Notes under the pieces: generated by a model
Told to the model about the DNA's origin: nothing
Databases searched by the model: none
Seen by the model: only the letters and a program-made list of their open reading frames with translations
Assembly (NCBI GenBank): GCA_009646425.1
Contig: WJBW01000002.1
Location: 385,878-449,877 of the forward strand
Length of the DNA: 64,000 bases
From: Burkholderiales bacterium LSUCC0115
Lineage (GTDB): Bacteria > Pseudomonadota > Gammaproteobacteria > Burkholderiales > Burkholderiaceae_A
Direction of reading: 5' to 3'
Shown: piece after piece, positions 45,343-50,581 of the stretch
Layout: each line of letters opens with the position of its first letter
Numbering within the stretch: position 1 is the first letter of the stretch
Position numbers and translations under genes: made by a program

Positions 45343-46341
45343 ATGAATATCAACACCAGACTCTTCTCCTCCGCCTTCGCCCTGCTGCTGATGCTGGCCA
45401 TGGGCTTTTTGGCCTCGGGCGTCCAAGCAGCCAACCTACCAGGCCCCATCGTCTCAGCCCAGCAGCTCAAAGCGCTGGTCGACAGTAAATCGGTGGTGGT
45501 GCTCGACACCCGCGAGCTCTTCCAGACCGATGGCAAGACACCCAACTATGCAGCCGGTCACATCCCTGGCTCGCGGCCTGCGCCCTACTCTCTGTTTAGA
45601 GGACCCAAAGAGAATCCGGGTGCCGTCATGCCCTTGGCTGCACTAACCCAATTGGTCGCCAGCCTGGGCCTGGACCCCCAGCAAGCCGTGGTGCTAGCCG
45701 GCTCTGGCTCGGATGCCACCGAGTTCGGCGGGGTAGCCCGTATCTACTGGAACCTCAAGGCAGCAGGCTTTACCAAGCTGGCGGTGCTCAATGGTGGCAC
45801 CGGCGCCTGGATGGCGGCCAAGTTACCGCTGGACAAAGGCGAGCCCGCCAAGATCCCGCCCAGCAGGCCCAAGCTGACCTACAACCAGGCCATGATGGTC
45901 GGTACCGACGAACTCAATCAACTCACCAAGTCTGGCAAGACGCCATTGCTGATCGATGCCCGCCCCGAGGACTTTTTCTTGGGCGAGATGCGTCATCCTC
46001 AGGCCGCCCGGTGGGGCACCTTGCCGGGTGCCAAGCACTGGGACTCCGAGGAATGGTTTGTCGCCAACACGGGTCGACTGCTGGACACCACCCAGTTGCG
46101 CAGCATCGCGCAACGAGAGGGCTTTGTTAGTGCCCAGCCCCAGGTGAGTTTCTGTAATGCAGGTCATTGGGCGGCGACCCACTGGTTTATCCTCTCCGAG
46201 ATCCTTGGCCAGAAAAACGTCCGCATGTACCCCGAGTCCGTCGTGGCCTGGAGTAAAGCGGGTCTGCCCATGGATAACGAACCCAGCCGATCGACCGCAC
46301 TCATGCGCCAGGTCAAAGGCATCGGGATCATGAAAAACTAA
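45343..46341 (+). CDS. Periplasmic two-domain rhodanese-like sulfurtransferase
   Basis: A 332-residue exported protein; signal peptide about 1-29 (LLLMLAMGFLASGVQAAN). Two rhodanese domains follow. The first (about 35-165) has VVLDTRELFQTDGKTPNYAAGHIPG, but at its active-site loop reads VVLAGSGSDA, without cysteine. The second (about 180-315) has LLIDARPEDFFLGEM and the active loop SFCNAGHWAATHW, with cysteine 271. This matches SseA-like enzymes, where only the second domain is catalytic. The neighbouring YeeE/YedE gene suggests sulfane sulfur or thiosulfate handling. Confidence 0.9.
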   Translation: MNINTRLFSSAFALLLMLAMGFLASGVQAANLPGPIVSAQQLKALVDSKSVVVLDTRELFQTDGKTPNYAAGHIPGSRPAPYSLFRGPKENPGAVMPLAALTQLVASLGLDPQQAVVLAGSGSDATEFGGVARIYWNLKAAGFTKLAVLNGGTGAWMAAKLPLDKGEPAKIPPSRPKLTYNQAMMVGTDELNQLTKSGKTPLLIDARPEDFFLGEMRHPQAARWGTLPGAKHWDSEEWFVANTGRLLDTTQLRSIAQREGFVSAQPQVSFCNAGHWAATHWFILSEILGQKNVRMYPESVVAWSKAGLPMDNEPSRSTALMRQVKGIGIMKN

Positions 46342-46366
46342 CAACCTCTTCCCAGAAGGGCGGTTC

Positions 46367-47512
46367 ATGCTGCTGCAACGATCAGGCCTGCTTCTCGCAG
46401 GCCTTTTGGGTGTTCTCACCATTGTCTTCTTTGCTGGCCTGCAGGCGGGTCTCTTGGTGCTGCTCGGCATCGGCTTTGGCCTGGCCTTGCAGGGCTTCCG
46501 GTTTGGGTTTACCACCGGTTGGCGGGTCCTCATCCTGCAGAAAGACCCAAGGGGGGTCTACGGCCAGATGCTGCTCATGGTGCTGGCCGCTGGTCTCACG
46601 CTGCCCCTGATCGCCAGCCATCCGGGTGAGTTGGTCGGTGCCGTCTCTCCCATCAGCTACAGCCTGATCCTAGGGGCCTTCGTCTTTGGCCTGGCCATGC
46701 AACTGGCTGACGGTTGTGGCTCTGGCACGCTGTACAAAGCTGGCGCATCCGCCCCGCTGTCTTGGGTGGTGCTGCCTGCCTTTATTGTCGGCTCTACTGT
46801 CGGAGCATCCCACCAGCCAGCCTGGCTCGCGCTGGGTGGGCCCTTTGATCAGCAAGGCCAAGCAGCGAGCCTTGACCTGCTCGCGGCCCTTGGTCCTTGG
46901 GCCGCCCTGCTCCTCACCATCGTGGGCTGCGCTGTGGTGACCTGGCTCGCCTACCGTCGCAGCCTAACGGCCAACCCGCCCATCGAATCTGGGCTGTCGC
47001 CGACGCTGCGCCGCTGGCTGATCGGCGGGCTGGTCTTGGCCGTCCTCTATGCCGTCCATCTGATCGTGGCCGGCCAGCCCTGGGGCATTGTGTATGGACT
47101 AGGTCTCTGGGGTGCCAAGATCGCCAGTGGTCTGGGCGCAGACTTTGCCAACGATGCCTTCTGGGGGGTTGCCCCTCATGCCCAACGACTGGCCGAACCC
47201 GTTCTCTGGGACATCACCAGCCTCACCAACATTGGTCTGCTCTTTGGCGCCCTGCTCTCTGCCAAATGGTCAGCCGAACACCAAGCCAGCACCGACAAGA
47301 GCTTCTCGCGGCTTCGTCTGCAGCACTGGCTTACCGGCATCGCCGCAGGGCTGGTCATGGGCTATGCCTCACGGCTGGCCTTTGGCTGCAACATCGGCGC
47401 CTTTCTGGGTGGGGTGGCTTCGGCCAGCCTGCACGGCTGGGTCTGGTTCGCCATGGCCTTTTTAGGATCCATGGTGGGTGTCCGCATTCGACTGAAGGTA
47501 CAAATGCCATGA
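46367..47512 (+). CDS. YeeE/YedE family membrane transporter
   Basis: A 381-residue inner-membrane protein with about nine or ten helices, of the YeeE (TsuA-like) family linked to thiosulfate or sulfur-compound uptake. Two cysteine motifs stand out: LADGCGSGTLYKAG and LAFGCNIGAFLGGVAS, the G-x-x-x-C pore-type signatures. It lies 25 bases after the rhodanese gene, so a transport-plus-sulfurtransferase module is likely. Stop overlaps the next small gene. Confidence 0.9.
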   Translation: MLLQRSGLLLAGLLGVLTIVFFAGLQAGLLVLLGIGFGLALQGFRFGFTTGWRVLILQKDPRGVYGQMLLMVLAAGLTLPLIASHPGELVGAVSPISYSLILGAFVFGLAMQLADGCGSGTLYKAGASAPLSWVVLPAFIVGSTVGASHQPAWLALGGPFDQQGQAASLDLLAALGPWAALLLTIVGCAVVTWLAYRRSLTANPPIESGLSPTLRRWLIGGLVLAVLYAVHLIVAGQPWGIVYGLGLWGAKIASGLGADFANDAFWGVAPHAQRLAEPVLWDITSLTNIGLLFGALLSAKWSAEHQASTDKSFSRLRLQHWLTGIAAGLVMGYASRLAFGCNIGAFLGGVASASLHGWVWFAMAFLGSMVGVRIRLKVQMP

Positions 47513-47667
47513 AGCTCTCTCGACTCGCCCCCTGGCTGTTCTGGGCTCTGCTGATCATGGGCCTGTCCTACGACTTTGCCGCCACCGACAAACCAAGGGC
47601 TGAACCCGCCATGCTGGCCATGGGCAGCGGCAAGGCCGCTGCTGGCGGTCACTGCTCGGGACGCTAA
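47509..47667 (+). CDS. Small membrane peptide gene after YeeE/YedE
   Basis: A 52-residue open frame whose ATG overlaps the YeeE stop (ATGA). It has a basic start MKLSRLAPW and one hydrophobic segment LFWALLIMGLSYDFAA, either a single membrane helix or an uncleaved signal. The glycine/alanine-rich tail GSGKAAAGGHCSGR ends with a lone cysteine. The coupling and the cysteine suggest a partner of the sulfur module. I do not recognise a family. Its TAA overlaps the -10 box of the next gene. Confidence 0.6.
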   Translation: MKLSRLAPWLFWALLIMGLSYDFAATDKPRAEPAMLAMGSGKAAAGGHCSGR

Positions 47668-47677: not shown

Positions 47678-48856
47678 ATGAGAACCCATGCCCGTCGACA
47701 AGTCCTTCATGCCGTGGCCGGCAGCCTGATGCTCGGTGCTGCCCCGCGGATCCTTCAAGCCAAACCCGCCGCTCTGCGCATCGGTGTGATGCTGCCCGCC
47801 TCGGGCACCTACGCCCCTCTGGGTGCCGCCATTTTGCAAGGCATGCGTCTGGCCTTACAGGAGTCAGGCGGGCAATGGGCTGGTCGCCCTGTTGAGTTCT
47901 TAACGGTCGACGATGAATCCAATCCCAGCAAGGCCCCCGAGCATGCCAACCGTTTGATTGCTCGCGACAAGGTCGATCTGCTAATCGGCTCAGTCCACTC
48001 TGGTGTGGCCCTGGGCATGGCCAAGGTGGCCCGTGAATCCGGTCACCTGATGCTGATCCCTAACGCAGGCGCCAATGCCTTGACTGGTTCGGCCTGCGCC
48101 CCCAACGTTTTTCGCACGTCTTTCTCCAACTGGCAGACCATCTACCCCCTGGGCAAGGTCATGGCCGACCAAGGCATCAAGACGGCCGCTTTTCTGACCT
48201 GGAAGTACACCGCCGGCCAAGAGTACGCCGAGGCCTTTGCACAGGGTTTTGAGGCCCATGGTGGCAAGGTGCTCACCAGCCTGACGCTGCCCTTTCCACA
48301 GTTGGAGTTTGGCCCCCTGCTGGCTCAGATCGCCGCTGCCAGACCACAAGCCGTCTCGTGCTTTTTCTCAGGCTCGGGTGCAGCCAAGTTTCTACTCGAC
48401 TATGCGCGGTCCGGCCTGAAGGACAAGATCCCACTCTACGTCACGGGGCACACCACCGAGGGCATTTTGCATGCGCTCAAGGGCGAGGCCGAGGGCATTA
48501 CCAGCGTGCTGCATTACGCCGACGGCCTACCCAATGCCAAAGACAAGGCCTTTCGTCAGGCCTGGAAGAAGGTCAGCAAGCTGCCCGTCGACGTCTTTGC
48601 CGTGCAGGGTTACGACACTGGCCTGGTCCTGGCCCAGGCCCTCAAGGCCACACAGGGCGATCCAACAGCCAAGGTGATGCAAAAGGCCTTGGAGGGCATT
48701 CGCATCAGCAGCCCTCGCGGCGACTGGGTCATGTCCAAGGCGCACAACCCCATTCAAGACATCTACCTGCGACAAGTCGTTGGTCAGCAGAATCTCTACA
48801 AGGGCATTGCCGCCAAAGCCCTGGAGGATCCAGGTTCCAACTGCCGACTGAGCTAG
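47678..48856 (+). CDS. Branched-chain amino acid-type ABC binding protein (LivK-like)
   Basis: A 392-residue periplasmic binding protein. The leader MRTHARRQVLHAVAGSLML carries a twin-arginine-like RR followed by a moderately hydrophobic stretch, cleavage near residue 28. The mature part begins LRIGVMLPASGTYAPLGAAILQGMRLA, the class I periplasmic fold. It continues with LLIGSVHSGVALGMAKVA, PNVFRTSFSNWQ and VSCFFSGSGAAKFLLDYA. Related proteins bind amino acids, amides or aromatic acids. It is followed by two permease genes but no ATPase. Confidence 0.9.
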   Translation: MRTHARRQVLHAVAGSLMLGAAPRILQAKPAALRIGVMLPASGTYAPLGAAILQGMRLALQESGGQWAGRPVEFLTVDDESNPSKAPEHANRLIARDKVDLLIGSVHSGVALGMAKVARESGHLMLIPNAGANALTGSACAPNVFRTSFSNWQTIYPLGKVMADQGIKTAAFLTWKYTAGQEYAEAFAQGFEAHGGKVLTSLTLPFPQLEFGPLLAQIAAARPQAVSCFFSGSGAAKFLLDYARSGLKDKIPLYVTGHTTEGILHALKGEAEGITSVLHYADGLPNAKDKAFRQAWKKVSKLPVDVFAVQGYDTGLVLAQALKATQGDPTAKVMQKALEGIRISSPRGDWVMSKAHNPIQDIYLRQVVGQQNLYKGIAAKALEDPGSNCRLS

Positions 48857-48866
48857 ACCGCTGGCT

Positions 48867-49757
48867 GTGACCGATCCGATCTACCTGCTGATCCAGTTGG
48901 TCAACGGCCTGCAGTACGGCCTGCTGCTGTTTCTCATGGCCAGTGGGCTGAGCCTCATGCTGGGGGCCATGGGGATTCTCAATCTGGCCCACGGTGCCAT
49001 CTACATGCTGGGCGCCTACCTGGGCTTCAGCCTGGTCAGTCTGACCGGTCGGCTGGAATGGGCCTTGGTGCTCATCATCCCGGTCAGTCTGGGCCTGGGG
49101 TTGGTGATCGAACGTCTGCTGCTTCGAAAGACCTTTGAGCAGCACCCGCTTGAGCAAGTGCTGCTCACCTTTGGCCTGGTCCTGGTCTTCGAAGAGATCC
49201 GATCCCTGGTCTGGGGGGATGATGTCTTGTCCATCGCCGTTCCGACTTGGCTATCGGGCAGCCTACCGCTGACAGATCTGCTCACCTATCCACACTACCG
49301 CATCGCGGTTGGTCTGCTCTGCCTGTTGATGGCAGCGGGCCTCTTTGTCTTTATCCACCGTACCCGGTTTGGACTGCAGATTCTGGCGCTGGCCGAGAAC
49401 CGTCTGCGCTTGGCTAGCCTTGGTATCAATCCAATCCGGTTGTCAGCGGCGGTTGTGGCCATGGGTTGCAGCCTGGCCATGCTCGCTGGTTTGTTGGCTG
49501 CGCCCATCTACACCCTCTACCCGCAGATGGGGCAGCAGGTCTTGGTGACCAGCCTGGTGGTGGTGATTCTGGGTGGACTGGGTTCACTCACCGGCACCCT
49601 GGTGGCGGCCCTGCTCATTGGCGTGGTCGACACCATCGGGCGCGTGGCCTTTCCGCAAGCCTCAGGCCTGGCCATCTACCTGTGCATGGCCGTAATGCTG
49701 GCTTTTCGGCCGCAGGGGCTCATGGGCCACCAAGCTGATGGCGGAGGCGGTCGATGA
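48867..49757 (+). CDS. ABC permease, LivH-like
   Basis: A 296-residue permease with about eight helices. It starts at GTG 48867 (MTDPIYLLIQLVNGLQYGLL) and has ASGLSLMLGAMGILNLAHGAIYMLGAY, the LivH core, and the contact loop GLQILALAENRLRLASLGIN. VVVILGGLGSLTGTLVAALLIG follows. It differs strongly from LivH at 36064, so this is a separate system and not a recent copy. Confidence 0.9.
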   Translation: MTDPIYLLIQLVNGLQYGLLLFLMASGLSLMLGAMGILNLAHGAIYMLGAYLGFSLVSLTGRLEWALVLIIPVSLGLGLVIERLLLRKTFEQHPLEQVLLTFGLVLVFEEIRSLVWGDDVLSIAVPTWLSGSLPLTDLLTYPHYRIAVGLLCLLMAAGLFVFIHRTRFGLQILALAENRLRLASLGINPIRLSAAVVAMGCSLAMLAGLLAAPIYTLYPQMGQQVLVTSLVVVILGGLGSLTGTLVAALLIGVVDTIGRVAFPQASGLAIYLCMAVMLAFRPQGLMGHQADGGGGR

Positions 49758-50581
49758 TCTACGGCCTGGACCTCTTGTCCCAGTGGCTTGAAATGGGCCT
49801 GCTGGCGACTAGTCTGTGGCTTTTGATTCAGCAGTTGGGTTTGGTGAGCCTGGGACATGCGGCCTTCTACGGCCTGGCGGGATACAGCCTGGCCTTGCTC
49901 AGCCAACACACGGCCAACTTCTGGCTCACTCTGCTCGGCGCCTTGTTGGTCTGTGCTGTCTTTGCCGGTATCACCGGACTGCTGGCGCTGCGGTCAAAGG
50001 GACTGTTTTTCCTCATGGCGACGCTGGCCTTTGCCCAGATGTGTTTTGTGTTGGCCTTTGAGACAAACCTGTTTGGCGGTTCGGATGGTCTCTATCTCAC
50101 CCGTCCCAGCGAAGGCATCTGGTCACTCAAGGACCCTGTGAACCGACTGCTGCTCACGCTGATCATGGTGATGGGCTGGCTGTTGCTGCTGCTGCGCTTG
50201 CAGCGTTCGCCATTCGGATTTCTTCTGCGAGCCATTCATGACAACCCGTCACGCGTAGTGTCCCTGGGCTACGAGCCCATGCAGTTTCAATGGCTGGCTT
50301 ATGTGCTTTCGGGACTCATGGCCGGCAGCGCAGGCTTTCTCCACGCCTTGCGATTTGGTTTTGTCAGTCCGCAGGTCTTTGCCTGGCAGACCTCAGGCAT
50401 GGCCCTGCTCATGGTCTTGCTCGGTGGTCGACGACCCATCTGGTCAGGCTTTGCTGGTGCGGCTCTGGTGATCGCGCTACACGAGACCCTGTCCAACACC
50501 GCCTGGTTTGGTGAGTGGGCCAAGCATTGGCTCGCTGCCCTGGGTCTGATCATGGTGGTCGTGGCCCTGCGCAGACGCTAG
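49754..50581 (+). CDS. ABC permease, LivM-like
   Basis: A 275-residue permease, overlapping the previous gene by 4 bases. It has LGLVSLGHAAFYGLAGYSLAL, a LivM motif, RSKGLFFLMATLAFAQM and the contact loop FGFLLRAIHDNPSRVVSLGYEP. It ends TAG, whose first bases belong to the -10 box of the next gene. No livG/livF genes follow, so the ATPases must be supplied from elsewhere. Confidence 0.9.
   Translation: MIYGLDLLSQWLEMGLLATSLWLLIQQLGLVSLGHAAFYGLAGYSLALLSQHTANFWLTLLGALLVCAVFAGITGLLALRSKGLFFLMATLAFAQMCFVLAFETNLFGGSDGLYLTRPSEGIWSLKDPVNRLLLTLIMVMGWLLLLLRLQRSPFGFLLRAIHDNPSRVVSLGYEPMQFQWLAYVLSGLMAGSAGFLHALRFGFVSPQVFAWQTSGMALLMVLLGGRRPIWSGFAGAALVIALHETLSNTAWFGEWAKHWLAALGLIMVVVALRRR

Follow-up and report, generated by a model that had tools for sequence, protein, structure and literature searches.

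Gene content of the locus

The window, that is the whole stretch of 64,000 nucleotides from Burkholderiales bacterium LSUCC0115 analysed here, holds three head-to-tail genes, read as open reading frames from the sequence, which run from a rhodanese through a YeeE-family transporter to a small open reading frame:

45343..46341, + strand: exported two-domain rhodanese, 332 aa (PF00581)
46367..47512, + strand: YeeE/YedE-family transporter, 381 aa, two-cysteine subtype (PF04143)
47494..47498, + strand: GAAGG, possible ribosome-binding site (read directly from the sequence)
47509..47667, + strand: one-helix membrane peptide, 52 aa, stop TAA (recognised by its conservation after YeeE)

The first-pass annotation of this DNA had described three adjoining genes with overlaps or short gaps, and these coordinates bear it out. 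The gap between rhodanese and YeeE measures 25 bases, the YeeE stop and the peptide start overlap by 4 bases (ATGA), and GAAGG lies inside the 3' end of yeeE with 10 bases between its end and the peptide ATG. At this locus the nearest named relative is L073, an uncultured Burkholderiales MAG whose YeeE is 92% identical. The host genome is 1.84 Mb in size and carries the module on contig G000:C2; its three YeeE paralogues (G000:C2:511548 and G000:C1:216572 listed) and a SoxY at G000:C1:141747 hint at sulfur oxidation in so small a genome.

The rhodanese matches PF00581 in two stretches (E 5.2e-19) and begins with a segment that, judged by eye, is signal-like. Its only cysteine, Cys271, lies in domain 2 (codon 46153-46155; FCNAGHW; loop CNAGHW), and domain 1 is indeed devoid of cysteine as had been claimed; the accompanying label of an SseA-type enzyme fits the layout alone, since the rhodanese scores only 69.7 bits to the 3-mercaptopyruvate sulfurtransferase model NF008557 against a cut-off of 250. 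The ExtH rhodanese of selenite/tellurite operons is alike in that its NCBIfam profile (NF040901) is rhodanese-like and is matched, but the 63.2 bits obtained fall far below the cut-off of 200. Cys271 is invariant in all 81 aligned rows, 78 of which lack a second cysteine in the last 300 residues, and a single CN-loop cysteine is likewise found in the rhodaneses of six plasmid loci and of all 13 peptide-bearing loci in the phylum sample described below.

The transporter scores 165.2 bits to PF04143 (Sulf_transp; cut-off 27), and its AF2 model (pLDDT 92.9), predicted as a single chain like all structures here, superimposes on the thiosulfate importer TsuA with Z 35.7 to 8k1r (307 residues, 3.1 A) and Z 33.6 to 6leo. 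The match starts at residue 26, an extra N-terminal helix preceding it. Cysteines 293, 91 and 22 of TsuA are reported to lie in that order across the membrane, with Cys22 at the cytoplasmic interface with YeeD, whose Cys17 forms the fourth (PMC11073785). In the window, Cys341 (47387-47389) corresponds to TsuA Cys293 and Cys117 (46715-46717) to Cys91, whereas the Cys22 position is occupied by Gly47 (46505-46507), as it is by Gly in all 80 closest loci (the best 80 of at least 563 relatives) and in the 13 phylum-sample loci that have the peptide. Thus only two of the three TsuA cysteines are present, the NCBIfam TsuA models fall short of their cut-offs (61.5 vs 400 and 53.6 vs 645 bits), and neither YeeD nor TusA adjoins the gene, the genome's only TusA-family match being on another contig (G000:C1:485954). 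The best NCBIfam match is the selenium-associated YedE/FdhT model, at 91 bits against a cut-off of 350. A SoxT would be expected beside sox genes, and with SoxY as the marker, the genome's single SoxY match on C1 is away from the module on C2.

Compared with TsuA (YeeE)/TsuB (YeeD), this locus shares the fold, the matched Cys91 and Cys293 and the presence of an extra cysteine protein encoded beside the transporter. It differs in Gly47, in the extra N-terminal helix and in the partner itself, which is not an adjoining YeeD but a one-helix peptide whose tail is predicted to be periplasmic, along with the exported rhodanese. PmpAB (YedE1E2) also has the YeeE fold with only the equivalents of Cys91 and Cys293 conserved (PMC10812762, PMC11582611), although it is split into two half-size proteins, and the available portions of these sources mention no peptide. 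SoxT1A and SoxT1B are YeeE-like and tied to sulfane sulfur import or signalling but have three conserved cysteines according to the available text (PMC11582611); a 56-aa one-helix protein, Hden_0678, is encoded near SoxT1A, but it lacks cysteine.

Two loci of the phylum sample (L202, L203) have YeeE as two adjacent frames, by a frameshift or a PmpAB-like split. On an E. fergusonii plasmid (NZ_AP028818.1; L158), phage tail genes on one side and an IS1 transposase on the other enclose a YeeE frame that encodes ten cysteines and has Gly where TsuA has Cys22.

The small peptide and its cysteine tail

The small open reading frame is short and has no match in Pfam or NCBIfam, as might be expected of a chance reading frame, however, its position, its conservation across three classes and the purifying selection acting on it make that explanation extraordinarily improbable. 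A clear peptide match was obtained in 15 of 100 relatives, the host genome included (E 5.8e-6 or better; weaker matches, at E 0.014 to 10, were treated as chance). All 15 come from genomes of the same family and lie within 35 bases of the YeeE end, with the 4-base overlap in 11. A window-type YeeE occurs in 16 of the 26 family genomes examined, and 15 of these also encode the peptide; in the sixteenth (G005) the contig ends inside YeeE, the rhodanese still adjoining. Relative to its nearest relative the peptide gene shows 19 synonymous changes over 40.3 sites and 3 non-synonymous changes over 115.7 sites, and the residues constant among 26 tails ending in GGHCSGR (25 loci plus the window) are encoded by varied codons. 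The first-pass annotation had named a frame broken in close relatives as the sign that would speak against a gene; no such break was seen. A sample of 399 genomes of the order gave 18 peptide matches at E < 0.002, every one of them situated after YeeE. Three weak matches in order genomes (L052-L054) were dropped as they are not small frames after YeeE; one of them (L053) ends in GGHCSGRG within a regulator/sensor locus where no YeeE was seen. The peptide is, with near certainty on these sequence comparisons, a conserved gene of the rhodanese-YeeE module.

An alignment of 47 peptides gave only weak one-member matches to known families (best E 0.0028), so the earlier description of an unrecognised small membrane protein holds, no family model covering the peptide, and applies far beyond one window. 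Three annotated records, all of alphaproteobacterial plasmids (L071, L159, L160), name it "hypothetical protein"; a fourth (L072) lists no gene for it, in a gene table that is possibly incomplete.

The structure model of the window peptide has a helix at residues 3-26 followed by a Gly-rich tail, in which Cys49 (codon 47653-47655) precedes the end of the chain in the sequence GGHCSGR. Tail pLDDT falls from 64 (residues 31-40) to 56 (41-50) and 48 (51-52), and such low confidence fits the expectation for a flexible arm. A wider set of 97 peptides was assembled from the 80 closest loci, the window and 16 chosen others (L072 and L169 left out). The conservation of the terminal cysteine, which it had been proposed to check, is complete: a tail cysteine occurs in 97/97 peptides, in 96 of them no more than 14 residues from the C terminus. 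The charge pattern is N-in in 96/97, with one tie, so that the tail would face the compartment of the rhodanese; by this rule of thumb a periplasmic tail is predicted. His precedes the last cysteine in only 81/97 peptides and is therefore not essential. The ending GGHCSGR is present in the window as described, but it is a local form only, other tails ending in GGHCASTF, GGFCGALP, APCGAPCPSSRD or NPCAA repeats. Whole-protein counts give one cysteine in 68 of the 97, two in 15, three in 9 and four in 2, and single peptides have 11, 20 and 25.

Poly-cysteine NPCAA/NPCGA tails characterise proteins of 162-205 aa at L168, L169, L170 and L244 (6071-6799), all of one genus outside the class of the window, probably alphaproteobacterial. 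Shorter PCAA tails occur in Sinorhizobium (L072, L162) and Ciceribacter (L161).

Two readings other than sulfur transfer bear on this anatomy. Small one-helix subunits are known for some transporters and oxidases. The peptide might accordingly be a structural or regulatory subunit of YeeE whose cysteine forms a disulfide or stabilises a complex; its one-helix size, a start that overlaps or nearly overlaps yeeE here and in many relatives, and an Asp found directly after the helix in all 97 peptides agree with this. However, the cysteine is invariant while the helix sequence varies among the 47 aligned peptides, proteins with 11, 20 and 25 cysteines are hard to explain structurally, and 28 phylum-sample YeeE loci without Cys22 (27 Gly, 1 Ser), none with a rhodanese found nearby, manage without the peptide. 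We consider a subunit unlikely; the peptide may instead be an assembly factor, the other role first proposed for it. The second possibility is that the module serves metals or other chalcogens such as selenite, tellurite or copper, the tails binding or reducing them and YeeE moving the product. The metal-binding look of the poly-cysteine tails favours it, as do two NCBIfam matches below cut-off, the second match of the rhodanese (ExtH, of a selenite/tellurite reduction operon) and the top match of YeeE (selenium YedE/FdhT). Nevertheless, the single cysteine of 68/97 peptides is poorly suited to metals and YeeE retains both cysteines reported as indispensable in TsuA (PMC11582611), which leaves this role decidedly unlikely.

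Association of peptide, rhodanese and YeeE across genomes

When species genomes were scanned using the YeeE alignment, at least 563 relatives were confirmed; the best 80, which come from alpha-, beta- and gammaproteobacteria, were kept. Each of these 80 YeeE genes is preceded by a rhodanese and followed by a one-helix, cysteine-tailed peptide, whose start falls between 11 bases ahead of and 133 bases past the YeeE stop; 78 of the peptides were found by a script requiring a cysteine and a hydrophobic stretch, and two (L114, L143) by eye. The term "sulfur module", applied to the window at first sight, therefore holds across these best 80 of at least 563, which, being the closest relatives, are not an even sample.

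The phylum sample comprised 398 genomes, 47 of them with YeeE at E <= 1e-20 and counted at one locus each. Cys22 is absent from 41 of these loci and present in 4, the other 2 being split genes. Where a rhodanese lies near a YeeE without Cys22, the peptide is found in 13/13 loci, the window included, and where none does, in 0/28; absence of rhodanese here means no match to the window rhodanese within 1.5 to about 2 kb, candidates were judged by eye, and the 28 include L209, where YeeE is matched only in part. In the 4 Cys22-type loci, rhodanese matches that are weaker lie near YeeE, but no peptide accompanies them. A YeeE tree was built from 94 rows: the window, ten plasmid loci, 40 of the best 80 loci and the loci of the phylum sample, from which L165, L202, L203 and L209 were left out. 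Several of its rows sit on long branches, and of the 3 changes required to explain the peptide label at least 1 is forced. The contrast of 13/13 with 0/28 is thus strong in rows but may represent few independent events, and a single origin of the peptide would be compatible with this tree. At L173/L242, YeeE is followed first by the peptide, then by a DUF6969 gene and last by the rhodanese, peptide and rhodanese both being kept; this displaced rhodanese, beyond the peptide and DUF6969, favours a working partnership over merely shared gene order.

The idea of a partner for any YeeE was rejected. The two Cys22-type paralogues of the host genome have no peptide behind them, the peptide having a single match genome-wide, and no peptide was found in the 29 loci parsed (L219 was unparsed) from the 30 top-scoring PF04143 matches in 120 genomes of the order; 24 of these 30 matches are Cys22-type (L215 and L216 with mis-picked frames). 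It was also considered whether the peptide cysteine stands in for the lost Cys22; this was rejected because the tail is predicted outside while Cys22 is at the cytoplasmic YeeD interface, and also because the 28 peptide-less loci lack Cys22. The sister YeeE group without Cys22, rhodanese or peptide has a terminal cysteine of its own (TAC, SGC, TGC), probably on the cytoplasmic side, in 15/28 loci of the phylum sample (L171, L172, L174, L175, L180-L185, L188-L191, L200) and in 5 plasmid loci (L153-L157).

Neighbouring genes of the 80 loci were clustered, and a family scan was made on five genes from three loci. Directly after the peptide in the window begin ABC genes of urea/amino-acid type (a binding protein and two permeases, 47679-50581); despite the short gap they were rejected as part of the module because the substrate-binding protein and the first permease each recur in just 1/80 loci (best 80 of at least 563). 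One recurring sequence cluster, a sensor histidine kinase, lies about 1.1 kb downstream of the module in L090 (8394-9902) and 15 others of the 80, and the one copy scanned has 2CSK_N, HisKA and HATPase_c. In L243 (3204-6904), a single-contig genome of 1.2 Mb keeps the module between two peroxiredoxin genes (AhpC-TSA with 1-cysPrx_C).

The kinases, present in 16/80 of these best of at least 563 loci, bear on the possibility that the tail is a gate or sensor whose cysteine, once modified by reactive sulfur in the periplasm, opens or plugs YeeE or signals through it. A signalling role has been described for the YeeE relative SoxT1B, which acts for SoxR (PMC11582611). However, a sensor has no obvious need of the rhodanese, and an unsystematic look at the neighbours revealed no regulator common to all loci, so that we regard such a function as very unlikely.

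A proposed periplasmic sulfur relay

The reading best supported by these observations is a three-gene hand-over of sulfur from periplasm to membrane in which the peptide passes sulfur from the rhodanese to YeeE, and we put its probability at roughly 0.5. It draws on the universal tail cysteine, the predicted periplasmic position of the tail and the way in which the peptide tracks the rhodanese among YeeE genes. The first-pass suggestion of a sulfur relay is thus the favoured one. The exported rhodanese would load sulfane sulfur, from thiosulfate or a persulfide source, onto Cys271 and transfer it to the cysteine close to the C terminus of the peptide, in its Gly-rich tail; the helix would keep the peptide anchored on the periplasmic side of the inner membrane. 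The arm would then swing to the periplasmic mouth of YeeE and deliver the sulfur to Cys341, the equivalent of TsuA Cys293 and the "first" cysteine, for onward passage across the membrane to Cys117 (TsuA Cys91). The peptide may thereby act as a periplasmic "zeroth cysteine", a mirror of YeeD as the cytoplasmic "fourth cysteine". We infer the contacts of the peptide, the persulfide chemistry and the direction of import from this arrangement, and the cargo would be thiosulfate or zero-valent sulfur. The latter is a serious alternative because YedE1E2 (PmpAB), a YeeE relative with two cysteines, is reported to move it (PMC10812762).

Some observations sit less easily with a relay. The cytoplasmic end of the path has neither Cys22 nor a neighbouring YeeD. 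No peptide-YeeE or peptide-rhodanese fusions were noticed among the loci read. A dependence of the module on Sox was rejected, as SoxY is not clearly enriched (6/13 genomes with the peptide vs 127/398 overall).

SoxY is nonetheless most likely the closest working analogue, and by this analogy the peptide would work like its sulfur arm. The C-terminal GGCGG cysteine of SoxY is an established site of sulfur binding (PMC6067878), and the host genome's own SoxY ends in GGCGG. Like SoxYZ, the peptide has a cysteine on a Gly-rich C-terminal tail, predicted in its case to lie in the periplasm. Unlike SoxY, it is membrane-anchored and about 50 aa long, and it is an analogue rather than a member of the family, with none of the 47 peptides matching SoxY PF13501 in Pfam at E <= 0.1.

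The rhodanese and YeeE belong to known families. To judge by the literature searches, neither the peptide family nor the arrangement of the three genes has been described; no description of the peptide was found in the open-licence literature, a scope that leaves out most subscription journals. The finding is of a conserved third component of the rhodanese-YeeE module and goes beyond a curiosity of one window. It adds a small-protein family, so far undescribed, that spans three proteobacterial classes. In its broadest form, which we hold tentatively and at somewhat less than even odds, the proposal is that these peptides form a new family of cysteine arms, tethered to the membrane on its periplasmic side and bearing one to at least 25 cysteines, and are the missing donor of sulfane sulfur from rhodanese to YeeE-type transporters. 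They would do in the periplasm what YeeD does in the cytoplasm and would resemble SoxY in function while being bound to the membrane, and the poly-cysteine forms may serve as a sulfur brush or store. Sulfane sulfur from a periplasmic carrier is said to reach the cytoplasm "by unknown means" (PMC11582611), and a conserved third protein with one invariant cysteine offers a directly testable donor for that step.
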